The notes: generated from the letters alone by a model not told the origin. A stretch of DNA of 45,345 bases from a candidate division WOR-1 bacterium RIFOXYB2_FULL_37_13 (GCA_001771535.1 MEUB01000020.1:1-45345); one strand, 5' to 3'; numbered from the stretch's first letter, positions 186-17,500 are shown. Translations and numbers: made by a program.

Positions 186-431
186 ATGACGACAAAGTTG
201 ACGCAAAAAGGACAAATTGTTATTCCGGTAGAACTTCGCAGAAAATATGATTTAGGAGCCGGGGCTGAAGTTGAACTTGCGGATATAGGCGGAGAGATCG
301 TAATTATTCCTATAGTTATAAAAAATCCTATAGATGAAGCCGTAGGGATAATAAAAGGGAGTAAATCGACAAGAGATATAATGAAAGCGATAAGAGATGA
401 GGAGGCTCGGTTTGAAAAGAAAAAAAGATAA
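186..431 (+). CDS. vapB: VapB/AbrB-type antitoxin
   Basis: This 81-residue protein opens with an AbrB/MazE-type swapped-hairpin DNA-binding domain, recognisable from TKLTQKGQIVIPVELRRKY (residues 3-21) and the following G-A-x-V/E strand. The C-terminal half (about residues 46-81) is charged, as expected for the segment that wraps and blocks a partner toxin. The downstream PIN gene overlaps its 3' end, the usual antitoxin-first order. By family knowledge the protein would neutralise the RNase and repress the operon. A second, decayed copy of this kind of antitoxin lies at 43735. Confidence 0.85.
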   Translation: MTTKLTQKGQIVIPVELRRKYDLGAGAEVELADIGGEIVIIPIVIKNPIDEAVGIIKGSKSTRDIMKAIRDEEARFEKKKR

Positions 432-837
432 CAGATTTGTCTTAGATTCTTTTGCTGTCCTTACTTATTTAAAAGAAGAGAATGGATGGCAAAAGGTTAA
501 GGAGCTTTTTTTGAAGGCAGAGGCAAAGATTATTTTGCTATATATGAATTATATTAATTTGGGAGAAGTTTATTATATAGCTTATCGTGAAAACGGAGCT
601 TCTGTTGCCGACAGGATTTTTTCTTTAATTAAACGCTGGCCTATACAATTTGTGGGGGTTGCTGAAAATATTGCTATAATTGCCGGAAGGATAAAGGCCG
701 AAAATAAGCTTTCTTATGCTGATGCATATGTTGTAGCGACCGCCCTACATAAAAGAGCCAAAATTGTTACGGGTGATCCAGAGTTTAAGTCGGTTGAAGC
801 TATTGTTGGCATAGACTGGCTACCAAAAAACCACTGA
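412..837 (+). CDS. vapC: VapC-type PIN-domain toxin ribonuclease
   Basis: The product is a PIN-fold RNase of about 141 residues. The four acidic metal-binding positions are visible in LDSFAV (D12), NLGEVY (E52), SYADAY (D104) and VTGDPEF (D122), so it looks catalytically intact. I place the start at TTG 412 because GGAGG lies at 401-405 with 6 nt spacing. An in-frame ATG at 397 would add five residues but has no ribosome-binding site. The gene overlaps vapB, implying coupled translation. VapC toxins typically cut tRNA or rRNA; the target cannot be read from sequence. Confidence 0.82.
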   Translation: MKRKKDNRFVLDSFAVLTYLKEENGWQKVKELFLKAEAKIILLYMNYINLGEVYYIAYRENGASVADRIFSLIKRWPIQFVGVAENIAIIAGRIKAENKLSYADAYVVATALHKRAKIVTGDPEFKSVEAIVGIDWLPKNH

Positions 838-1942: not shown

Positions 1943-2144
1943 TTTTCAGCTTCATTTTTTTTATCAACTTTTCAAAAGCACCTGTAAAATCAGGAGAGAC
2001 ATGAATATGTAAAGTCGCGAAATCATCTTTTGGCGGTTCCGGCGTTCTTAACGACAACATTCCTTGGAAAGCCTCAAAAAAAGGGGCATAAAATACAACC
2101 TCTTTTTTAGGGACTTTTATGAAGTAATCTTTGCAGTCTTTCAT
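1935..2144 (-). CDS. DUF4911-like small protein
   Basis: A 69-residue protein with the layout of DUF4911: an N-terminal strand (YFIKVPKKE), a helix around AFQGMLSLRT, a second strand (TLHIHVSPDF) and a closing basic helix. The function of that family is not established. It overlaps the upstream gene by an ATGA and the downstream HAD gene by 8 nt, so all three are probably co-translated. The family call rests on pattern recognition. Confidence 0.6.
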   Translation of the reverse strand: MKDCKDYFIKVPKKEVVFYAPFFEAFQGMLSLRTPEPPKDDFATLHIHVSPDFTGAFEKLIKKMKLKNV

Positions 2145-3091
2145 AGTTTTTCTATGTAAAAAAGAGGAATAATAGGCAGCTCTTTATAAATTATTGCATC
2201 AATTTCTTTTAATCTTTTAGTTTGTTCTTCTTTTAGCGCGGGGTCTATTTGAGCCAATTGATCCAATAGAGCATCAACGCGTTCGTTGCTGAAAAAGGTA
2301 AAATTCGCTTCTCCCTTTGAGTAGAGCAAAGGTCTGATTAATGCTTCTGTTTCTGTTTTTCCTGTATTTGTCGGTTTGCAGCTTTTGTCAGGGGAATATC
2401 CGCTTTTTATCGTGCCGTCGTAAGAGGCAAATATTTCCTGATCGTCTGCTTGCGGGATTTTATCGCATCCCAAGGCATGAAAAAGCCTGCTATTTTTATC
2501 TCCGATAAAGATAGAAAGAAAAGGATTTATTTTATACCCCATAAGAAATAAATGATCCTTGCCTGAATTAAGCGCTTTTCCCCAGACGGCGGATTCTTCG
2601 TAAGTGACCTCTTTTAAGTTTATTTTTATTCCTATCTTATTTAAATTGTTTTTTATTGTTTCAGCAATCATTTTTGTCTTTATTCCATCCGTATGCAAAA
2701 GGGTTAATTCTTTTGGACGGTTTTCACCTGAAGCTTTTAAAAGTTGTTTTGCCATGTTGGCGTTGTATGTGATTTCTTTTAAAGTGGTATCATTTCCCTG
2801 CATATTTGGCGGAATAACTCCTATAGGAACTACTTCTTCGCTCATGATTTTTGTCGTTATATACTGCTTGTTTATTGCATGCGCTATTGCTTCACGCGCT
2901 TTTACATTTGAAAAAACATCTTTATGCAGGTTAAATCCCAAAAACCAGACACCATCATATTCCTTGGCAAATGCTAGAGAAGAAAATCCTATTATGAAAA
3001 TGCAGATGCAGAGTAATTTGGTGGATGCCCGCAATATTATTTTACAACAATTGGGCATTGAATATTGGATATTGGTCATTTTCTTTCTCAT
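2141..3091 (-). CDS. Half-length peptide/nickel-type extracellular solute-binding protein (SBP_bac_5)
   Basis: The 316-residue product starts with an export signal (hydrophobic stretch about 26-41, likely cleavage after AFA at 42). It then enters directly the second half of an ABC transporter peptide-binding protein: LGFNLHKDVFSNVKAREAIAHA resembles the mid-protein signature of that family. The C-terminal lobe follows, ending with ELPIIPLFY. Family members are normally 500-600 residues, so the first lobe is missing. The signal may have been recruited to a gene fragment. No permease or ATPase gene is nearby, so a transport role is doubtful. ATG overlaps the fumarase stop as ATGA. Four heptamer repeats lie inside residues 5-14. 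Confidence 0.68.
   Translation of the reverse strand: MRKKMTNIQYSMPNCCKIILRASTKLLCICIFIIGFSSLAFAKEYDGVWFLGFNLHKDVFSNVKAREAIAHAINKQYITTKIMSEEVVPIGVIPPNMQGNDTTLKEITYNANMAKQLLKASGENRPKELTLLHTDGIKTKMIAETIKNNLNKIGIKINLKEVTYEESAVWGKALNSGKDHLFLMGYKINPFLSIFIGDKNSRLFHALGCDKIPQADDQEIFASYDGTIKSGYSPDKSCKPTNTGKTETEALIRPLLYSKGEANFTFFSNERVDALLDQLAQIDPALKEEQTKRLKEIDAIIYKELPIIPLFYIEKL
3050..3077. repeat. Heptanucleotide tandem array (4 units) at the 5' end of the solute-binding gene
   Basis: Four consecutive 7-mers are visible on the plus strand: ATTGGGC, ATTGAAT, ATTGGAT, ATTGGTC. They lie inside codons for the N-terminal NIQYSMPN segment of the minus-strand gene. The consensus resembles the 8-unit array at 43313-43368. 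Confidence 0.7.
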
Positions 3092-4439: not shown

Positions 4440-5341
4440 AATTTTTTTACAGCGTCCGCAGAAGCGTTTAGAGCTTTTTGTTCATCTGGTGTGAGCTTAA
4501 GCTCTATTATCTCTTCAACGCCATTCTTCCCAAGCTTTGCAGGAACTCCGACATAAACATCTTTTAGCCCATATTCTCCGTTAAGATATGCGCATGTTCC
4601 TACGATTTTTTTGCTGTCTTTAACAATTGCTTCTGCCATGGTGGCGGCAGAACTTCCAGGTGCATAATATGCAGAACCTGTTTTTAAGTGTTTTACAATT
4701 TCAGCCCCGCCGTTTTTTGTCCTTTCGACAATATTATCAATTTGTTTTTGAGTCATCTTTTCTGTTATCGGGCGTTTATCTATTGTTGACAGGTTGGGGA
4801 CTGGAACCATTAGATCGCCATGGCTTCCAAGGACTTCTGCATGGATATTTTTTACAGAAGAGCCTGTCATCTCGGATATGAAATATTGCATCCTTGCAGA
4901 ATCAAGGACTGGCGCCATTCCGATCACTTTATTTGGTGAAAGCCCTGAAACCTTATATGCAAGATAAGTCATTGCATCTAGCGGGTTTGTAACTATTATT
5001 AGAATAGTATTTGGCGATTGTTCAACGATATTTTTGACGATTGAAGAAAGTATTTCAGAATTTTTGGCGATCAGATCATCACGGGACATTCCGGGTTTTC
5101 TTGCCAATCCCGCGGTGATTACAACTACATCGGAATTTTGTGTATCTTCATAATCATTTGTCCCTTTAATTTTGGCATTAAACCCTTCAACCGCCCCTGC
5201 CTGCATCATATCGAGCGCTTTTCCTTGAGGTAACCCTTCTACTATGTCGATAAGGACTAAATCCTCAAACCCCATCTGCGCCAAGCGATATACGCATTGA
5301 GCCCCGACATTCCCGGCGCCGACGACTGTTATTTTTGGCAT
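4412..5341 (-). CDS. mdh: NAD-dependent malate dehydrogenase
   Basis: The 309-residue protein is of the LDH-like malate dehydrogenase type. GAGNVG (8-13) and acidic D32 form the NAD site. GLARKPGMSR supplies R81 and R87, and the arginine at 81 distinguishes malate from lactate dehydrogenases. D147, R150 and H174 (in GSHGD) are the catalytic/substrate residues. It oxidises malate to oxaloacetate, or the reverse, next to fumarase. The usual GMAGVLDSAR reads GMAPVLDSAR, a small deviation. Its ATG lies inside the last codons of the giant ATPase gene and no clear Shine-Dalgarno is visible. Confidence 0.93.
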   Translation of the reverse strand: MPKITVVGAGNVGAQCVYRLAQMGFEDLVLIDIVEGLPQGKALDMMQAGAVEGFNAKIKGTNDYEDTQNSDVVVITAGLARKPGMSRDDLIAKNSEILSSIVKNIVEQSPNTILIIVTNPLDAMTYLAYKVSGLSPNKVIGMAPVLDSARMQYFISEMTGSSVKNIHAEVLGSHGDLMVPVPNLSTIDKRPITEKMTQKQIDNIVERTKNGGAEIVKHLKTGSAYYAPGSSAATMAEAIVKDSKKIVGTCAYLNGEYGLKDVYVGVPAKLGKNGVEEIIELKLTPDEQKALNASADAVKKLCEKLTVRK

Positions 5342-8193
5342 AGAGGTATTCTATCATATTTTGTGCCAAACGGATTAAATCCGGCTATGGCTAAATTTTT
5401 ATTAAATCTATCGACCCAAGCGGCAAAAGATCCATCTATTTTAGGGTTTGTTCCATGCGTAAAATTGCTTCGCCCTTCCCAACTATGTGCGGTTTCATGC
5501 CCAGTAAGGCTAACAAGCCAGGAAAACCAGGCATAAGATTTATTCTCTAACGAAAGCCCTGATAAAGCAGGCGGCATTGTAACTAATCTGGGGGTTAAAG
5601 GCTCTTGGTTATACCATATAACGCCATTCCCTCCATAAGCGTTTGCGCTGCGATTTTTAGATTTAAAAATATGCGGGCTAATATCTCCTGCTCCGGCATC
5701 TGCAAGAGTTTGATTTACCATAGCAAGAAACCTTTGTTCATCAGCTGATGGTTCTGTTATTACTTTCCAATCGTCATATTCTTTAACATAGGTTTTTCTA
5801 TCTGCTATTCCTGCTCGTCCCCTTTCTTTCATTTTTTCAGACACTAAACAACTATTAAAAATATCTGGTAATTCTTTTGATTCACTGCTATGCGCAGCTG
5901 TAACAGAATCTCTCAAAGTCCTTAAGCTAATTTTTATACCATCATCGCCTACGACTTCAACAAGAGTTAATAATTTGGCAAGTTTGTTTTCCCCTTCGCC
6001 AAAATATTTAGAAAAATCAACATTAAAAAATTCCCCTTTATTTATAGCTATTGCATCGTCCCTAATCGGCTTTTCTACATAGTCCGCATTTTGAGTTCGT
6101 GATGAAAAATAATTATAAGGAAATCCTTGGAATTCTTTTCTATCAGATAAATGTTGTTTGATTGCTTTACGCGCCGCCAAAATAAAGGCAATTTTCCCGA
6201 TTTTCTTTTCATCCTCAAGGGCGAATCCGCGCCCTCTTGTCGGTTTTTCCAATTCTCCAAGTTCTAAAACACTATCTTCAAAATATTCTTTCAAGCTATC
6301 GGGCAAATATTTAAGATAAGCGGCTTTATTCCCATTCATCCACAAGCCATCATGAGATACGCGCTCCAACCCTTCCTCAACTTCGAGCAGAGAATATGTC
6401 CCTCTGTCAGGCAAAGTAATGCTTTTTATTGATAAAATTTCTTCATTTATAGATGTCCCGTTATGAATTATTTTCATATCACGAACCAATCCAAGATATC
6501 TTTTTAACTGTTTTCCAAATAAATGTTCCGCGGCAAAACCTTTTGCCATAGTATCGTTCTCGTATTTATTTCCAATTTCTTTTACAGTCTGCACCCATGT
6601 TCCAGCCATATTCCCATCTATTTCACGAAAACTTTCAACCTCTACATGGTCAAAAACGCCGTCAACTCTTACGCATCGGCAATAAGCTTCAACAATTTTG
6701 CCGTTTCCTGTGCTACTCTTGAGAACCACTCTATCCGCGTCTTTAAAGACGCTTTTAAAGCCTATTCCAAAACCGCCTGTTGATCTTTTATCCTCGCTCC
6801 TTAGGGATCCAAATTTTTCTCTTTTTTCTATATTAAAAAGGGCTCTTTTTATATCAGAAGCTGTCATTCCTTTGCCGGAATCTTCGTATTCAACGACATG
6901 CTCTATGGTATATCCTCTGTTTCTCAAATAAGAGCTAATCTTCAAAACATTGCTTCCTGCATCGCGGCTGTTTTGTGCGATTTCTCTTGTGCAAATATTG
7001 GATGCCAGTTCCGGTCCCATGATTGTTCCTCGTACTCTTTTTTGCCAATAAGCAGAGTCAACTTTTTTGTTAGAAAAAAGGCTAATTGCTCTTGCTTGAT
7101 AATCAGCGTCTTTAGCTAACCAATCTTTACTCTTTCTATTAATCCAGGCGTAAAAGGCTAAATCGTGTGAAGGAACATCGCTTGGCGGAATTTCATAATC
7201 TGAAGGTTCGCAGTATCTCACAGCCGCAGCTACCTGAAAATCTTCTTCAAGAAAATATGTTACCCATTTTTGGGTTTCATCGCTTCGAAGCAAATCTCTC
7301 CCATTGTGCAGATATTGATAAAAGTCGATAGAATCAAAAAATCGGAATAAACGGCGAATTTCTCTAAAATCCATCGCATTAAAAACTTGTTCCCATCTGT
7401 CAGCAATTCTGCAAAACTCTGCGCTCGACAGCTGTCCAGATGTTTCTTCCCAAACTCTTTCTAAAAATGAAAAATAGCATTCTCGAGCTTCGATCTCTGT
7501 TACTTCCAATCTTTCATGAAGTTTAATTATTTGCTCGCTACCTAATTTTTTAACAGCCCCTGCTCCAAGATAAGAAAAGAGTTCAAGATTAGTATCCGGA
7601 ACATAGTCGCCGCGGACAACACGAACAACCATTTTTTTTCTTCTTTGTTTATACAGCAAAGATTCCGCCTGATCACTAAAGGAGGTTCTTGCGCGAGGTA
7701 ATTCGGGCGGGAGCGAAACCGAAATTTGGTCGCCCGCGGGCGCCGGCAAATAAAGCTCAAGCGAGCCTTCTTTCTCATCCAATTTCAAATATGGTATAAC
7801 CACAACAGTTCCGTCCTGATTAAAAACAATTTTTTTATAAGAATAATCATCATAATCATAAGAAGAAGGCAAGGTCTTTGATTGTGTTTCTAAAAGAAGT
7901 CCATCGTCGGTTATAAGTAATCTGCCATGAGCATCATTAAGCTCTACTTTTTCCCCATTGTTCCCCAAAAACACAATATTATTATTAAAACGACTATAAA
8001 CTAAAAGGCCTTTATCTTTAAAAGTACGGACAAGTTTTTCATCATTAGAAACATATCTACTTTGCAAATTATTTCCAGACAACTCATAAACTTCTGTTAT
8101 TTCTTGACCATGAGTCCTCCTAACACTGCTTACAAGTATTTTTCGCCCACTTGGTAAATTATAGGAATTGGAGCATACCCGTTCAAATTCCAA
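5329..8193 (-). CDS. C-terminal part of giant GHKL ATPase / HExxH protein (second frame)
   Basis: This frame is read as up to 954 residues but is probably not an independent gene. Sensible sequence begins at ILVSSV (residue 19), continuing the upstream frame after an A5 run. Residues about 20-165 are beta-strand repeats (propeller-like) and about 175-380 are mostly helical. Residues about 385-560 form a GHKL/Hsp90-like ATPase with the N-box REIAQNSRDAG (E404, N408), G1 motif YEDSGKGM (438-443) and G2 motif GGFGIGFKS (473-481). Near the end, GHETAHSWEG provides an HExxH motif (899-903) typical of zinc metallopeptidases. The TTG at 8193 has no ribosome-binding site. The stop overlaps the mdh start. 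Confidence 0.8.
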   Translation of the reverse strand: MEFERVCSNSYNLPSGRKILVSSVRRTHGQEITEVYELSGNNLQSRYVSNDEKLVRTFKDKGLLVYSRFNNNIVFLGNNGEKVELNDAHGRLLITDDGLLLETQSKTLPSSYDYDDYSYKKIVFNQDGTVVVIPYLKLDEKEGSLELYLPAPAGDQISVSLPPELPRARTSFSDQAESLLYKQRRKKMVVRVVRGDYVPDTNLELFSYLGAGAVKKLGSEQIIKLHERLEVTEIEARECYFSFLERVWEETSGQLSSAEFCRIADRWEQVFNAMDFREIRRLFRFFDSIDFYQYLHNGRDLLRSDETQKWVTYFLEEDFQVAAAVRYCEPSDYEIPPSDVPSHDLAFYAWINRKSKDWLAKDADYQARAISLFSNKKVDSAYWQKRVRGTIMGPELASNICTREIAQNSRDAGSNVLKISSYLRNRGYTIEHVVEYEDSGKGMTASDIKRALFNIEKREKFGSLRSEDKRSTGGFGIGFKSVFKDADRVVLKSSTGNGKIVEAYCRCVRVDGVFDHVEVESFREIDGNMAGTWVQTVKEIGNKYENDTMAKGFAAEHLFGKQLKRYLGLVRDMKIIHNGTSINEEILSIKSITLPDRGTYSLLEVEEGLERVSHDGLWMNGNKAAYLKYLPDSLKEYFEDSVLELGELEKPTRGRGFALEDEKKIGKIAFILAARKAIKQHLSDRKEFQGFPYNYFSSRTQNADYVEKPIRDDAIAINKGEFFNVDFSKYFGEGENKLAKLLTLVEVVGDDGIKISLRTLRDSVTAAHSSESKELPDIFNSCLVSEKMKERGRAGIADRKTYVKEYDDWKVITEPSADEQRFLAMVNQTLADAGAGDISPHIFKSKNRSANAYGGNGVIWYNQEPLTPRLVTMPPALSGLSLENKSYAWFSWLVSLTGHETAHSWEGRSNFTHGTNPKIDGSFAAWVDRFNKNLAIAGFNPFGTKYDRIPLCQK
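5485..5499 (-). other. HExxH (HETAH) motif codons at the C terminus of the giant protein
   Basis: The codons for H-E-T-A-H sit in a helix-like context (SWLVSLTGHETAHSWEG), which is how zinc-metallopeptidase active sites usually look. The third zinc ligand is not assignable by eye; E906 and H913 are nearby candidates. A catalytic role is inferred, not shown. Confidence 0.45.
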
Positions 8194-10904
8194 ACAAAAA
8201 GGGTTTCTACTTTATTGTCGACTAATTCTAAAAGATGATAACTATCAGAGTCTGGCTCTCTGGCAATAATCAATAGTCGTCCATTAACAACTGAAGCTTC
8301 AAACAAATTATATGTGCCGGAAAATATTGGTCTTAATGAATTATCCGCGATAAATTCTTGTATATTATATTTGTTTTTATCTTCTTCGCCTATCAAAAAT
8401 CTTCGCCCATTTCTTAAAGAATACACGCCAAAATATGGAGTGTTTTGGCTTGATATTGGGTTGTTCAGACTGTCTTTTTCTAATCTGGCAAAAAAGCCTT
8501 TTGTCTCTTTTTCAGGAACATAAGGAATATAAGAAACAAATAATTCATCGCCCACAACTTTGGGATAAATTGTTTTTGCCTCTAAAATTGGCACAAGAGA
8601 TAAATCGTTTTTTATTCTATATAAAGAGCTGTGATTTTGTTCAAATTCAACCACAACATATGTATCTCTATTATGTACAAACACACGACAGTTGCTATTG
8701 TTTGGAACTGATATTGGGGAAAATTTTCCATTTTCAACGACTTCTAAGTGAATATTTGTTATTTTAAAAATTCTTCCACCTATAAAATATAAACACTTTT
8801 CATTGCAGGATAAACCAGCAATAGGCTCTGTTTTTGCCAAATTTAATGTTTTTCTATCTAAAAAAATAATCCTGTCATCAGAAATTAGAGAAACGGTACT
8901 ATTCGAGTCTTTTTGGAGGGTAATTGTATATCCACTTCCTTCTCCAATTTTTCTAATCAAATGGTCTCTAACAGACAAAACGCTTGAAAAAGAATAAGAA
9001 GAATTATGACTAACAATAAACAAACTGCCCTCAACTATCTTAACCTTTGGACGATGATTCGCATCTCTCTTTACTAAATCCCTTACAACATTTTCCAAGC
9101 TCAAATCTGCGGTTTCTTCAGGAAAAATTTTCTTTGCTTCCTCCATGCGAATTTGTAATATAGCAAGAGTCCTATAGGCTTCACCTCTTTCCATACCAGT
9201 AGCTATTAAATAGTTCAAAGAAGTTTCATCTTCACTGGAAGCAATTTCTGATTTTTGCAGGGCTTTTTCTTGCAATTCATCTGCAGCCTCCATAGTTGTT
9301 AATGCCTCTTCCTGACGATTCCCCACATCTAATAATTGATTCGCACAAACAGCCTTATCTGCCATTTTTGCTTTAGCTTCCCACGGAAGCCTTGCTTTTA
9401 CCTTCCAGCCGAGCCTTAATCCATCGCCTCCGTCATATTTTGCGGTGAAACACTGGTTAAGCATTAATTTATTGTCAGCATATTTTCTGTTTACAACAAC
9501 TGCTTTGCCTGCTTCAACATAAACAACGGCATCATCAGTAAAATCGGCAACATACATTAAATGCCCATTTTGGCTATCGTATCCTTTATATTCCGCAAGA
9601 CCTGCTTTTTTTGCGTTAAAATCGTAAAGTCTCCGATCTAAATAAATTTTTCGGGCAGTTGTTTGCAATGCCACAAACGCCTTTTCGTTAGGAACAAAAA
9701 CAACTTCGGCATTTTTTTCTTCTGCTTCAACAGATTTCTTCGTCTCTCTATAAATCCAGTCAATTAAAGTTTGCTTCTCGCCATTTACAAATTCAACCCC
9801 ATCCAACCCAGCAACTAAAGAATTTAAAATCGACCATTTCCGTTCATCTTGCATAGCCAATACTTTCTCAACAATTTTTTTTATTTGGCAAGCTTCCTGC
9901 TCTTTAAAAAACACCTTTTCAGTTCCTTCTCCCCGTTCTAGCCCTTCTCCCATTTCAAATCCCACATTTTCTTCAATGTTTATTTTTTGAGCAGGAACTC
10001 CCTGAATTTCTACTTCGCAAAGAAGAAAACTAACCCTGCCATGAGTATCTTTTTCGACATTATCTTGAGTTCTTTCTTTTAAATAATAACCTGGAGGATA
10101 AGCGCTATCACTATATGCCTTTCTTTGTGTCCTTGAGGTGTTGGATATTGCCAGGTAATTTTTAACCAATATTTCCGCACTCATACCCTGGCCATTGTCT
10201 CTCACAATATACCCCTCATTATCAATTGTTATGTCAATCCTTTTTTCTCCTGCATTGCTCAAGTCGTTGATTAAAATTTTATTCACATAAATCGCGACAT
10301 TCTTTACATATCTTAGCCTGTTTACAAGGCATTCATATAATTGTGCTTTTTCTTCTGCAGTTAATTTTTTAACAACTTTTATCTCTGTTCCCTTGGTAAA
10401 GGTTGGAGCTGAAACTTCTTCTAAAAGAACATCTGTATCCTCTTTTTCTCCTTTTACGCCGGAAAAAACAATTTTTCTTGCAATTGCCTCGCTTTCTATT
10501 TTTGTTGTAACCTCCATTCTTGCAGTTTGATCATCCACAATTCGTTTTAAATTTTGGAATCTGCCCTCGCCATATTCGCCAATAAGTTTAATCCCCAATA
10601 GATTCTCTACAGCATTTATCGCAAGTTCCGACGCTCCCTGTTCTGTTTTTGATGTTTGCTGCAACATAATCGGACCAAGCCCTTCCTCTTTTTGCAGTTG
10701 TCCCCGCGATTTGTAAGTTGAGATTTTTTTTGCAAGCGCTCGGGGCTTAAACAGCGCGGCACAATCTAACGCACTTCTTTTTGTAGAAACATAGCGTGCA
10801 GCTAAAGCAGTAACGAAGCTTAATCGAGGTAGGGATTGGTTAGTGGCGGACATTACAACAGAATGGGTTAAAGATGGCGTAACGCTTGAGATTGAATTTC
10901 CCAT
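8130..10904 (-). CDS. N-terminal part of giant GHKL ATPase protein (first frame)
   Basis: The frame encodes 924 residues, ending at a premature TAA just after an A5 run. Residues about 85-345 look like an unusual GHKL/Hsp90-like ATPase. There is an N-box-like SELAINAVEN (92-101), a glycine-rich GEYGEGRFQNL (109-119), GTEIKV (172-177), and then IVRDNGQGMS (233-242). The DNGQGM motif comes after the glycine-rich loop rather than before it. Residues about 350-600 are mixed alpha/beta. From about 600 on, strand-rich repeats of the type NGRxLI...L continue into the second frame. No Shine-Dalgarno is visible at ATG 10904. No transporter, kinase or receptor domain is seen, and the cellular role is unknown. 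Confidence 0.78.
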   Translation of the reverse strand: MGNSISSVTPSLTHSVVMSATNQSLPRLSFVTALAARYVSTKRSALDCAALFKPRALAKKISTYKSRGQLQKEEGLGPIMLQQTSKTEQGASELAINAVENLLGIKLIGEYGEGRFQNLKRIVDDQTARMEVTTKIESEAIARKIVFSGVKGEKEDTDVLLEEVSAPTFTKGTEIKVVKKLTAEEKAQLYECLVNRLRYVKNVAIYVNKILINDLSNAGEKRIDITIDNEGYIVRDNGQGMSAEILVKNYLAISNTSRTQRKAYSDSAYPPGYYLKERTQDNVEKDTHGRVSFLLCEVEIQGVPAQKINIEENVGFEMGEGLERGEGTEKVFFKEQEACQIKKIVEKVLAMQDERKWSILNSLVAGLDGVEFVNGEKQTLIDWIYRETKKSVEAEEKNAEVVFVPNEKAFVALQTTARKIYLDRRLYDFNAKKAGLAEYKGYDSQNGHLMYVADFTDDAVVYVEAGKAVVVNRKYADNKLMLNQCFTAKYDGGDGLRLGWKVKARLPWEAKAKMADKAVCANQLLDVGNRQEEALTTMEAADELQEKALQKSEIASSEDETSLNYLIATGMERGEAYRTLAILQIRMEEAKKIFPEETADLSLENVVRDLVKRDANHRPKVKIVEGSLFIVSHNSSYSFSSVLSVRDHLIRKIGEGSGYTITLQKDSNSTVSLISDDRIIFLDRKTLNLAKTEPIAGLSCNEKCLYFIGGRIFKITNIHLEVVENGKFSPISVPNNSNCRVFVHNRDTYVVVEFEQNHSSLYRIKNDLSLVPILEAKTIYPKVVGDELFVSYIPYVPEKETKGFFARLEKDSLNNPISSQNTPYFGVYSLRNGRRFLIGEEDKNKYNIQEFIADNSLRPIFSGTYNLFEASVVNGRLLIIAREPDSDSYHLLELVDNKVETLFVWNLNGYAPIPIIYQVGEKYL
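8139..8143 (-). other. A5 run where the two frames of the giant gene meet
   Basis: On the minus strand the first frame reads GGC GAA AAA TAC TTG TAA and the -1 frame reads CGA AAA ATA CTT GTA. Joining at the AAA codon gives VGEK-ILVSSV, which restores the repeat pattern (compare NGRLLIIA just upstream). This points to one lost A (mutation or sequencing error) or to slippage. The joined product would be about 922 + 936 = 1,858 residues. Confidence 0.65.
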
Positions 10905-11157
10905 ACCAGTATATCGTTAAAATGAGAGCAAAATTGCACCCATGCGAGTACTGCATTTTGCAATGCGCTCATCGATAAAATAAGTGCTTGACAAACTTGT
11001 ATGTTGATGTAAAATTATAGAGTACATTTTGTTTGAGTAAGGTCCAAACTTTTTGTGCAGTTTAGCAGCATGTAAAAATCTCTACGCCAAATTTTGTAGC
11101 TAGAGTTTTGGTGGAGGGGTTTTTTCGTGCTTTTTTGTCTTTTAAAATTTATTAAAA
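10905..11157. other. Divergent intergenic region between the giant gene and rpmG
   Basis: This 253-nt gap is the longest gene-free stretch in the window. It holds the rpmG promoter at 10988-11015. It also holds an imperfect palindrome near 10955-10975 (GAG..GCATT-ttgc-AATGC.CTC) and a weak leader hairpin pairing CTCTA at 11080-11084 with TAGAG at 11101-11105, followed by a short T run. A TATACT-like -10 sits on the minus strand only a few bases before ATG 10904, with no good -35. No small gene was found. Confidence 0.5.
10988..11015 (+). promoter_or_regulatory. Main promoter of the rpmG-trnW-secE-nusG-ribosomal run
   Basis: A perfect TTGACA at 10988-10993 is followed 16 nt later by TAAAAT at 11010-11015, directly preceded by TG. 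It is the best promoter found upstream of the 29-kb plus-strand run of expression genes. It leaves an untranslated leader of about 135 nt before rpmG. Confidence 0.6.
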
Positions 11158-11307
11158 ATGAGAGAAATAATTACTTTAGAATGCAAAGAGTGTAAAAATC
11201 GCAATTACACTACGACTAAAAACAAGAAAACGCAGACAAGTCGTATGGAAATGACTAAGTATTGTAAATTTTGTCGAAAGCATACGGAGCATAAAGAGAC
11301 AAAATAA
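11158..11307 (+). CDS. rpmG: Large ribosomal subunit protein L33 (bL33), zinc-binding form
   Basis: A 49-residue protein running from [10 protein letters not shown] to HTEHKETK. Two cysteine pairs, C9/C12 and C36/C39, form the zinc ribbon of the C+ type of L33, which sits near the ribosomal E site. The order rpmG, tRNA-Trp, secE, nusG is the widely conserved one, which supports the call. No Shine-Dalgarno sequence is evident before the ATG, only an A/T-rich stretch. Confidence 0.92.
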
Positions 11308-11324
11308 GGTCTTGAATGGTTCGG

Positions 11325-11397
11325 AGGCGAGTAGCTCAATTGGTAGAGCACCGGTCTCCAAAACCGGCGGCTGCAGGTTCGATTCCTGTCTCGCCTG
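11325..11397 (+). tRNA. trnW: tRNA-Trp (anticodon CCA)
   Basis: A complete cloverleaf can be drawn. The acceptor stem is AGGCGAG/CTCGCCT, the D arm GCTC...GAGC, and the anticodon stem CCGGT/ACCGG around the loop CTCCAAA with anticodon CCA at 11358-11360. The T arm is GCAGG-TTCGATT-CCTGT with one G-U pair, and the discriminator is G at 11397. The 3' CCA is not encoded and must be added enzymatically. It is embedded between rpmG and secE and so is likely cut out of the same transcript. Confidence 0.96.
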
Positions 11398-11422
11398 TGT
11401 TTTATTGGTATAAAAGGTTGTT

Positions 11423-11638
11423 ATGGCTGAACAAAAAAAGAGTTTAGTTAATAAAATTAAAACATATGTGAAAGAGACACAGGCAGAGGCAAAGAAGGTT
11501 GCATGGCCGGATAGAAAGTATGTAATTTCTGCTACTTCAATAATAATAGTGATGGTTTTGGTTCTGTCAGTGATACTTTCGGTTTTGGATTTAGGATTAA
11601 CGCAGATGATTATCTCTTTAACGAGGATGCATTCATAA
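11423..11638 (+). CDS. secE: Preprotein translocase subunit SecE
   Basis: The 71-residue protein is the short, single-span form of SecE. An amphipathic N-terminal helix contains the family signature EAKKVAWPDRK (about 22-32), followed by one membrane segment (about 36-58). It clamps SecY, encoded much later in this run, in the protein-conducting channel. It lies 25 nt after the tRNA and 4 nt before nusG. Confidence 0.93.
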   Translation: MAEQKKSLVNKIKTYVKETQAEAKKVAWPDRKYVISATSIIIVMVLVLSVILSVLDLGLTQMIISLTRMHS

Positions 11639-11642
11639 AATT

Positions 11643-12431
11643 ATGAGTTTTGATAACTTAGAGAACAATGCGGAAGAAAAAAATAATGAGAGTCTTCATG
11701 CCGAAGAAAATAGCCGAGAAGATGAAGATGCCCATATAATAGAAGAGGCCGAGCCTTTGCAAGAAAAAGTGGAAGCCGCGGCAGATGAAGCGATACCTGA
11801 AGAGTTGCCTAAAGAAAGTGGGGAGGAGCTGGAGGCTAAGGGTGAAGAAGTAGTTGAGAATGAATATGCATCGGAGAGTAAGGCGGCGGATAAGGCAGAA
11901 GTTGAGGATAAAAAATGGTATGTTGTTCAAACTTATTCAGGGCAGGAAGATAAGGTAAAACAGGCTGTTGACAATACAATTGAACGATTGGGGTTAAAAT
12001 CTAAAGTTTCTGAAGTTTTAATTCCTGAAGAAGATGTGGTAGAGCTAAAGGGAAAAAAGAGAATAGAAAGAAAAAAGAGGCTTTTTCCCGGATATATATT
12101 TTTGGAAATGGTTTTGACCGATGAAACGTGGCATGAAATCAGACAGACGCCTGGAGTCGCGAGGTTTATTGGTACAAAAACTAAGCCGACCCCTGTTTCT
12201 GACAGGGAAATGCAGCGGGTATTGAAACAAATAGGCGTTAAAGCAGAAAAGCTTGAAATTGCATTTGAAAAAGGTGAGGCAGTTAGGATTATCAGCGGGC
12301 CGTTTCGAGGTTACACGGGAAATATAGACGAAATAAACGCTGACCGTGAAAAGTTAAAAGTTTTGATTAATATTTTTGGAAGAGATACGCCAGTTGAAGT
12401 GAATTTTGAACACGCGGAAAAAATTGTTTAA
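11643..12431 (+). CDS. nusG: Transcription factor NusG with long acidic N-terminal extension
   Basis: Residues about 90-262 are a complete NusG. The NGN domain starts at [13 protein letters not shown] and includes [14 protein letters not shown] and TPGVARFIG. It is followed by a KOW domain ([19 protein letters not shown]). NusG binds the RNA polymerase clamp, modulates pausing and links polymerase to Rho or ribosomal S10. The first 89 residues are extra: glutamate-rich, apparently disordered, with 33 acidic against 7 basic residues by my count. No ATG, GTG or TTG codon close to the NGN domain could give a normal 175-residue protein, so the extension appears real. Confidence 0.93.
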
Positions 12432-14506: not shown

Positions 14507-17500
14507 GAGAAAGTTTATTTGAAGATGCGAGAATAAGAATTCCAGAACCCCCAGATCTTCTGGAGCTGCAAAAGGATTCTTTTGCATGGTTCATGAACGA
14601 GGGGTTGCGGGATGAATTACGCGCTATGTCGCCAATAAAGAGCTATGACGGTGTTCTTGAACTGTTTTTTACGGGTAAAATTTTGGTGGATAAGCCTAAA
14701 TACAGTGAAAGGGATTGCCTTGTTCGTGAAGTGACATATGCTGCTCCTTTGCGCGTAGAAGTGAAACTCGTTAATCGTAAAAATAAAGAAGTCAAGGTTC
14801 AGGAGGTTTTTATAGGAGATTTGCCTTTAATGACCGAACGAGCCACGTTTATTATAAATGGAGCGGAAAGGGTTATTATATCTCAGCTTACTCGCTCTCC
14901 AGGTGTTTATTTTAAATCAAGCAAAAGGGTTGAAAAAATTGGCCGTCATTTGTATTACGCTACAATTATTCCTGATAGGGGATCTTGGCTTGAAATTGAG
15001 ACAGATTCTCATTTTGCCGTATTTGCCAGGATTAATAAGACCCGTAAAATAGGAATTACAACCCTGCTTTGCGCGATTGGAGCGACGGAAAAGGAAATTT
15101 TATCCGCTTTAGCTGAAGGTGAATTTCGTAATCGAACCTTAAAAGAAAGCCCGATTATTTCTGAAGAAGAAGCTCTTATTGAAATTTATAAAAAGCTTAG
15201 ACCCGGAGATCCTGTTACTTTTGATGGAGCAAAAAATTATCTTTATAACCTTTTCTTTAATGCTAAACGTTATGATTTAGGGCGTGTTGGGCGCCATAAG
15301 ATGAATATAAAATTAAACATTAAAGTTGATGAGAATATAATGGTTTTGACCAAAGAAGATATTCTTGGCATGACAAAATATCTTATCCAACTTCACATGG
15401 GAGAAGGTTTAACCGACGATATAGACCATCTTGGAAATCGTCGCATTCGTAGTGTTGGCGAGCTTTTGCAGAGGCAATTCAGAATAGGCTTTACGCGTAT
15501 TGAGAGATTAATTAAGGAACAAATGACTATTAAGGGGCCTTCTGCTACACCTCAGGCCTTAATAAATATTCGACCTCTTTCTGCTGTAATAAAAGAATTT
15601 TTTGGTTCTTCTCAATTATCTCAATTTATGGATCAAACAAATCCATTAGCCGAACTTACCCATAAAAGAAGATTGTCAGCATTAGGCCCAGGCGGACTTA
15701 CTCGTGAACGCGCCGGTTTTGAAGTCCGTGATATTCATCCAAGCCACTATGGACGAATTTGTCCCATAGAAACACCTGAAGGACCAAATGCCGGCCTTAT
15801 TGGTTCACTTTCGACTTACGCAAGAGTGAACAAATATGGCTTTATAGAAACACCTTACTTTAAAGTTGCAAATGGTATTGTTACAAATAAAATTGAATAT
15901 TTAACTGCGGATGTTGAAGATTTATTTCGTATAGCTTCTTGTGATGTTGGGCTTGATCCTTCAAGGCATATAAAAGAGAAGCAGGTTCCTGTAAGATATA
16001 AGAGAGAATTTGTTTTTGCATCTTCAAAAGAAGTTGACTATCTGACTGTTGCTCCTTCTCAAATAATAGGGGTATCAACTGCTATGATTCCATTTGTTGA
16101 GCATGACGATGCAAATAGAGCTATGATGGGAGCTAATATGCAGCGCCAATCTGTTCCTTTACTCAAACCTGAGGCTCCGATTGTCGGGACAGGGCTTGAA
16201 GCAAAGATAGCGGAAGATTCTTATTCCATTGTTAGGGCTAAAAGCAGTGGAAAAGTTTCCAGTGTTACCGCAAATTCTATCGAAGTTACAACAAATGGTG
16301 GAGAAAAAGAAGTTTACGATCTGATTAAATTTTCCAGAAGCAACCAGAATACACTAATACATCAGAGACCCGTAGTCAGCGTTGGAGATAAAGTTTCTGA
16401 AAAAGATTTTTTAGCTGATGGATCTGCTACAGAAGGTGGAGAATTGGCTCTTGGGAAAAATATTCTTGTGGCATTTATGCCATGGGAAGGATATAACTAC
16501 GAAGACGCAATTTTGATTTCCGAAAGACTTGTTCGTGACGATGTATTTACAAGTGTGCATATAGAAAGAATGGAAGTCGAAGTTCGTTCAACTAAATTGG
16601 GAATGGAAGAAATAACAAGAGAAATCCCCAACATTGGGGAAGAGGCATTGAAAAATCTTGATGAACGAGGGATCATTAGAGTTGGGACAGAAGTTCAGGC
16701 CGGGCATATTTTGGTCGGAAAAGTTACTCCGAAGGGAGAAACAGAACTTCCTGCCGAAGAAAAACTTCTTCGCGCTATATTTGGAGATAAAGCGCGCGAT
16801 ATGAGAGATACTTCTCTTAGAGTTCCTCCAGGAGAAGGCGGAAAGGTTATAGATATTCGCGTATTTTCCAGAGAAAAAGGGGATGAGTTAAGTCCCGGGG
16901 TTCATGAACTAATAAGAGTTTATATCGCGCAAATAAGAAAAGTCTCTATTGGAGATAAATTGGCTGGACGTCACGGGAACAAAGGGGTTATAGCAAAGAT
17001 TCTTAAAGATGAAGATATGCCATATTTGCCGGATGGTACGCCTATTGATATTGTGTTAAATCCATTAGGGGTTCCTTCCCGTATGAATATAGGACAGATT
17101 TATGAATTTTTACTTGGATTTGCTGCTGATCATTTTAAGAAAAAATATAAACTTCCTTCTTTTGATGAAATTTATGGAGAAGGGGCTTCAAAGAATAAAG
17201 TTGAAGAACTTTTGGGGAAAGTGAAAGAAGATCTTCCATGGTTTGATGTTTCAGGGAAGGTTCAATTAAGAGATGGAAGAAGCGGAGACCCGTTTGACAG
17301 AAAAGTAGCGGTTGGAAAGATGTATCTGATGAAGCTTATTCATCTTGTTGATGATAAGATGCATGCAAGATCAACCGGCCCATATTCTTTAATTACTCAG
17401 CAGCCATTAGGAGGAAAGGCTCAATTCGGCGGACAAAGATTTGGTGAAATGGAAGTTTGGGCGCTTGAAGCTTATGGCGCGGCTCATACTCTTCAAGAAC

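Follow-up and report, generated by a model that had tools for sequence, protein, structure and literature searches.

The DNA analyzed here (the window) is an entire contig, C20, of 45,345 bases, taken from a 1.79-Mb draft genome that is 96.7% complete. Two long open reading frames, ORF1 and ORF2, overlap on its minus strand, which raises the question of whether they encode a single giant protein and, if so, what that protein might do. Coordinates of the features discussed below are collected in Table 1.

Table 1. Features of the ORF1-ORF2 locus, in window coordinates.
Feature	Position	Strand	Basis or remark
ORF1, 924 aa; GHKL ATPase with permuted segments, then the first part of the middle region	8130-10904	-	N-terminal half
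ORF2, 954 aa; middle region, canonical GHKL ATPase, and candidate protease (HExxH) domain	5329-8193	-	C-terminal half
Frame change by -1 at a run of five A	8139-8143	-	probable frame break
GHKL-1 segment A (ORF1 aa 76-105), helix carrying the N-box (ELAINAVE, 10605-10628)	10590-10679	-	profile comparison
GHKL-1 segment C (ORF1 aa 106-217), G2 loop GEYGEG at 10563-10580	10254-10589	-	normally after the G1 box and lid
GHKL-1 segment B (ORF1 aa 218-288), G1 box DNGQGM at 10182-10199 and lid-like stretch	10041-10253	-	displaced to the domain end
Conserved region behind GHKL-1 (ORF1 aa 289-530); possible middle-domain equivalent	9315-10040	-	alignment
Strand-rich variable middle, containing the frame break; looks propeller-like by eye only	7744-9314	-	
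Conserved linker before GHKL-2 (ORF2 aa 151-390); probably helical, by eye	7024-7743	-	
GHKL-2 (ORF2 aa 390-595), canonical order	6409-7026	-	Pfam and family profile
GHKL-2 N-box REIAQNSRD	6961-6987	-	
GHKL-2 G1 DSGKGM	6865-6882	-	
GHKL-2 G2 GGFGIGF	6757-6777	-	
TRGR motif behind GHKL-2; candidate catalytic-arginine loop	6229-6240	-	T and the second R shared by all seven proteins
C-terminal domain with HETAH (5485-5499; ORF2 residues 899-903)	5332-6051	-	aligned HExxH

The two frames stand in a -1 relation, and both are open across 8130-8211. Within this overlap, a codon-usage score built from the genes of the window favors the ORF1 frame from 8212 to 8144 (+9.6 vs -4.4), and from 8143 onward the ORF2 frame is preferred. 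Because codon preference switches frame there, the change can be placed at the run of five A, in agreement with an earlier note, made from the sequence alone, that had joined the two frames at 8139-8143. Judged by sequence, ORF1 and ORF2 are one gene split by a frame change near this point, and the break probably reflects an assembly error, a recent mutation, or slippage in the A run. A programmed frameshift is not favored, as the A run differs from a classical slippery heptamer and the relatives are all unbroken. The stop codon that ends the ORF1 frame (8130-8132) and a possible TTG start for ORF2 (8193) would fit a copy that in its own genome yields two functional proteins, or is a dead gene, rather than making one chain. 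We consider this fairly unlikely, given that the break is the only one within 5.6 kb and leaves the catalytic motifs complete on either side, that codon usage is normal in both halves alike, that the three causes just named account for the break equally well, and that the relatives described below are single-chain in six of six cases.

Six unbroken relatives were found, each a single chain, with lengths ranging from 1,599 to 2,102 residues. Two are paralogs in the window's own genome (1,802 and 1,780 aa, from open frames of 1,803 and 1,781), and these same two were matched by searches with ORF1 and with ORF2. The ORF2 search also identified two copies in another genome of the same taxonomic family (open frames of 1,611 and 1,775 aa) and two in a genome from another family of the phylum (2,106 and 1,649 aa); the four proteins in these two genomes measure 1,599, 1,770, 2,102, and 1,623 aa. 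All seven proteins, including the joined window copy, were aligned end to end, and they have a common order of parts: a GHKL ATPase (GHKL-1), a variable middle, a second GHKL ATPase (GHKL-2), and a C-terminal HExxH. The parts proposed in the earlier note therefore stay together, and its one-chain reading survives because the six homologs are single chains, none of them occurring as two separate proteins. We regard it as very likely that two GHKL ATPases and a zinc-protease-like site sit on one chain throughout the family.

GHKL-2 is the more conventional of the two ATPases. It has ExxxNxxD, DxGxG, and GxxGxGF motifs in the canonical order, it matches Pfam HATPase_c_3 (PF13589) at E=7.7e-9 (36.1 bits against a cut-off of 25), and its family profile matches the Hsp90 N-domains of the PDB at E=4.7e-10. 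The complete GHKL ATPase that had been read in ORF2 from REIAQNSRDAG, DSGKGM, and GGFGIGFKS is thus borne out. In both proteins of genome G053 (two of the seven) the G1 box of GHKL-2 is degraded, and because of this, these two modules may have lost ATP hydrolysis.

For the N-terminal ATPase, the earlier note had picked out DNGQGM in ORF1, correctly, and had overlooked the N-box, the G2 loop, and the order in which the motifs occur. To our knowledge, one motif order is common to all GHKL ATPases, among them gyrase B, Hsp90, histidine kinases, and MutL, and runs N-box, G1 (DxGxGM), lid, G2 (GxxGxG). In GHKL-1, the order is N-box, G2, G1 in all seven proteins, with 16-20 residues from the start of the N-box to the start of G2 and with G1 lying 127-140 residues beyond G2. 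The residues that define the motifs (E, N, G-G-G, and D-G-G-M) are invariant in 7/7 across variants of the N-box (ELAINAVE in the window copy; ELVSNAVD and ESVCNAID [G053]), of G2 (GEYGEG, GRFGVG), and of G1 (DNGQGM, DHGVGM, DSGTGM). After G2, segment C continues with strands, the stretch GTEIKVVKK, a helix, and a strand. Compared with the PDB, the GHKL-1 family profile matched Hsp90 N-domains (E=1.6e-7), and the match to HtpG came in two inverted pieces, query 218-272 aligning with HtpG 44-99 and query 106-195 with HtpG 111-191; TRAP1 likewise aligned in two inverted pieces.

The GHKL-1 alignment was cut into segments A, C, and B, and all six possible orders were compared by hhalign against an HtpG N-domain alignment whose sequences were gathered from the same phylum. 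The native order, A-C-B, aligned in three pieces with a best E of 2.3e-6, and the restored order, A-B-C, gave one alignment of 171 columns at E 4.4e-15; the other four orders all scored below the restored one, the best of them reaching 5.5e-11. With the canonical GHKL-2 of the same family as template, restoring the order improved the match from 1.2e-7 to 1.3e-14. When the insertion point of segment B was scanned along A+C, both templates gave a single sharp peak at residues 102-107, which is the canonical site. As a control, the same swap in the canonical GHKL-2 worsened its match from 5.1e-15 to 8.8e-10. Profile-profile comparison was the approach that discriminated between orders; HMMER scoring of single rearranged sequences did not, its local matches being split. 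These comparisons argue that GHKL-1 is almost certainly segment-permuted, in that the G1 box and lid, which normally separate the N-box helix from G2, have been transferred to the end of the domain. Single-sequence structure models made from the window sequence had a pLDDT of 39 for GHKL-1 and 35 for the C-terminal domain, values too low for a fold to be read from them.

Because its motifs are conserved throughout, the permuted GHKL-1 would be expected still to bind ATP. Permutations are able to break catalysis, and GHKL-1 could conceivably be an ATPase-dead scaffold or pseudo-protomer that leaves the canonical GHKL-2 as the sole motor. This is improbable: E, N, GxxGxG, and DxGxGM are retained by GHKL-1 in 7/7, and it is GHKL-2 that lacks a clear G1 box in 2/7, the opposite of what a dead GHKL-1 predicts. 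A natural and conserved permutation of a nucleotide-binding GHKL-1 would imply that the order of GHKL motifs is not required by the fold, and the domain would offer a direct way of finding out which connections are indispensable in the ATP pocket and lid. Annotation pipelines depend on the shared GHKL motif order, and it is because of an altered order that permuted domains would escape annotation; the Pfam matches obtained here for such a domain were weak and sub-threshold. The open-access literature that we searched yielded no description of a permuted GHKL or Bergerat domain, and one may exist elsewhere. The components of the protein are of known kinds; what appears to be undescribed, as far as that literature shows, is how they are combined and, most of all, the permutation in the GHKL core.

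Among 383 genomes from across the bacteria, the family as a whole was found in three, with three, two, and two copies, and of these 383 only the same three yielded the permuted domain. Two weak matches to the N-box plus G2 proved by sequence to be DegT-type aminotransferases, and the remaining candidates were canonical GHKL proteins. A search of 339 further genomes from a different region of the tree, run without a positive control, returned no match to the permuted domain at E<=1e-8.

Between the two modules lie 250-570 residues that are strand-rich and poorly conserved. The strand repeats and propeller that the earlier note had seen in this region are not established: a Pfam search of the middle gave no match in any member, and self-similarity relative to shuffles indicated weak repetition, with z=3.0 for the window's protein as against 0.7-1.8 for the relatives, which leaves a beta-propeller without statistical support. 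A PESRN or TRGR motif is conserved behind each ATPase and resembles by eye the catalytic-arginine loop of the Hsp90 middle domain (SRN or TRxR vs SRE). An Hsp90 middle domain was nonetheless not supported at either position, as hhalign of the regions behind the two ATPases against HtpG gave values below 1%. A C-terminal dimerization domain of the Hsp90 type was likewise not recognizable, and PF00183 had no match in genome G000.

The C-terminal domain contains exactly one HExxH in each of the seven proteins, aligned in all of them and located 47-61 residues before the C-terminus. The H, E, and H of this motif and a third histidine downstream are invariant in 7/7; over the remainder of the alignment, identity to the window copy is ~19-26%. 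In the window, the third histidine is ORF2 aa 913 (HETAH to His, 5455-5499). The resulting HExxH...HG pattern is SprT-like, every member having the third His ligand that accompanies HExxH in SprT-like proteins, and in three members this residue has an HGxxF-like context (HGSRF, HGKRF, and HGATF). Profile comparison with SprT-like sequences gave 64-79% probability and a pairwise E of ~1e-5 for an alignment of the motif only, which takes in the HExxH, the third His, and the subsequent Phe. A YgjP-like profile gave 53-68% with the HExxH alone aligned, SprT being the better of the two zincin profiles compared. Searches of Pfam and the PDB with this domain gave no significant match, and the SprT/SPRTN family (PF10263) went unmatched in Pfam at every threshold applied. 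The likeness is local. Stand-alone SprT proteins are small. Overall, the invariant residues make a zinc-dependent hydrolase site at the HExxH likely, and the possible protease of the earlier note stands to that extent; assignment of the candidate protease domain to SprT is unproven.

A SprT-like HExxH...HGxxF pattern, with SprT as the best profile match, could also point to an HExxH that acts on DNA-protein crosslinks or DNA-bound proteins, in the manner of SPRTN/SprT, with the GHKL modules closing as a clamp around DNA like those of MutL, GyrB, or MORC. The GHKL clamps of MutL, MORC, and gyrase do act on DNA. We consider such a role quite unlikely here, as both GHKL domains score best against Hsp90, the best 60 PDB matches of the GHKL-1 and GHKL-2 profiles consisting only of Hsp90-type chaperones, and no DNA-binding domain was recognized.

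Both ATPases resemble the N-domain of HtpG/Hsp90 (PF00183 with HATPase_c_3, PF13589) by profile, and GHKL-2 shares its canonical order. Unlike HtpG/Hsp90, these proteins have two modules per chain, the first evidently permuted, and a fused HExxH domain. Sacsin, too, is a giant protein in which Hsp90-like ATPases occur more than once on the chain; available excerpts describe three Hsp90-like repeats (PMC9880540, PMC3710099) and a middle-domain equivalent that is recognized by structure only (PMC9880540). In our searches, GHKL-2 matched P_loop_sacsin at E=9.2e-9 and a paralog matched SACS at 9.5e-5, both under the curated cut-offs, with SACS reaching at most 22.7 bits against a required 32.8, and the sacsin partner domains UBL, DnaJ, and HEPN had no match. 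The family differs from sacsin further in its protease-like C-terminus and in its apparent permutation, none being described for sacsin in those excerpts.

As to how such a chain might work, we propose that the two Hsp90-type modules would close on each other within one chain, like the protomers of an Hsp90 dimer, that the variable middle region would bind a client, and that ATP-driven closure would present this client to the C-terminal metalloprotease. The protein would then be a stand-alone quality-control machine, a chaperone-protease, in bacteria whose class showed no HtpG, and, if true, an energy-driven protease with an Hsp90-type engine in place of an AAA+ ring. Taken as a whole, the picture of a rare giant family in which two Hsp90-type ATPases, the first permuted, and a metalloprotease-like domain form a clamp that hands clients to the protease seems to us evenly poised. 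ATP-coupled proteolysis in itself has, at best, the same standing, and perhaps a little less. The most specific version, a working permuted Bergerat ATPase that pairs with its canonical partner as an intramolecular "Hsp90 dimer" to drive the fused metalloprotease, is possible though doubtful.

The earlier note had left the role between a chaperone-protease and a defense machine. GHKL ATPases occur in defense systems, and Tiamat TmtA and MzaB are, like the proteins described here, large and built around an Hsp90-like GHKL core; the PADLOC profiles for TmtA and MzaB matched ORF2 (E=2.9e-5) and ORF1 (0.03), respectively. Together with a patchy distribution, several divergent copies per genome, and a variable middle, this might suggest an effector for conflict with phages or other bacteria that is gated by ATP, its clamp sensing an invader signal and unleashing the metalloprotease on proteins of the cell. 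The PADLOC matches, however, extend over only ~55 residues of the GHKL core and show neither a permuted domain nor an HExxH in TmtA or MzaB, and there was no full-length match accompanied by partner genes for Tiamat or MZA. Every locus of the family, rather than lying in a defense-type neighborhood, is a solitary gene amid unrelated housekeeping genes, with different neighbors each time (mdh/fumarase and the rpoB region, pyrC/rnc and a comM-like gene, galT, rpsB-tsf and rpoN, and hem genes). Three scans of viral contigs found no relatives, which also speaks against a viral origin. A conflict effector is thus unlikely, defense lacking positive support, and a chaperone-protease role is the likeliest of those considered. 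HtpG was found in none of the 31 genomes of the window's class, whereas many other phylum members encode it; since G053 has a normal HtpG too, the family is not simply an HtpG replacement.

The two unbroken paralogues of the window's giant gene in the same genome (loci L008 and L009) lie on one contig, with ~11 kb between them. Despite this shared contig, the two copies are strongly diverged in sequence, and the C-terminal half of the L009 protein is 62% identical to its relative from a different genus (L011). Because of this divergence and cross-genus identity, we consider them, on sequence grounds, to be old paralogues. Both proteins from G053, a genome of another family of the same phylum (L012 and L013), carry a degraded G1 box (DPAGM, ENSGRV) in the second, canonical GHKL domain, whereas their permuted GHKL domain retains every motif.

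Matches to HSP90 (PF00183) were present in many phylum members outside the window's class and in none of the 31 genomes within it; judged by this model, absence of HtpG appears to be class-wide.

Coordinates of the features discussed are listed in the table below. Histidine kinases are also found near the relative in genome G001, alongside the probable HMG-CoA reductase.

Distant GHKL proteins were also seen outside the giant-protein family. The deltaproteobacterial locus looks like an undescribed multi-GHKL operon, in which the three adjacent genes encode 610, 635, and 611 aa and two of the three products are clear canonical GHKL ATPases. The N-terminal part of the Oceanihabitans sediminis protein is possibly a metal-binding, HD-like region.

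Within the window, the small gene pair resembles a VapBC-like module by eye, the first gene reading as an AbrB-type antitoxin and the second as a PIN-domain toxin. The solute-binding protein has a signal-like N-terminus and may be truncated: of the 368 positions in the SBP_bac_5 model, it aligns solely to 197-346, in the latter half.

Coordinates of giant-protein copies, distant GHKL loci, and neighboring genes
Locus	Positions	Strand	Feature
L008	4153-9561		Unbroken giant-protein copy
L009	6095-11437		Unbroken giant-protein copy
L010 (G001)	14803-15999	-	Probable HMG-CoA reductase (by eye)
L025 (deltaproteobacterial MAG)	4991-12128		Probable AAA-type ATPase (545 aa), then three adjacent genes
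L026 (O. sediminis)	8972-11458		GHKL protein (828 aa)
Window	186-837	+	Two small overlapping genes
Window	2141-3091	-	Solute-binding protein
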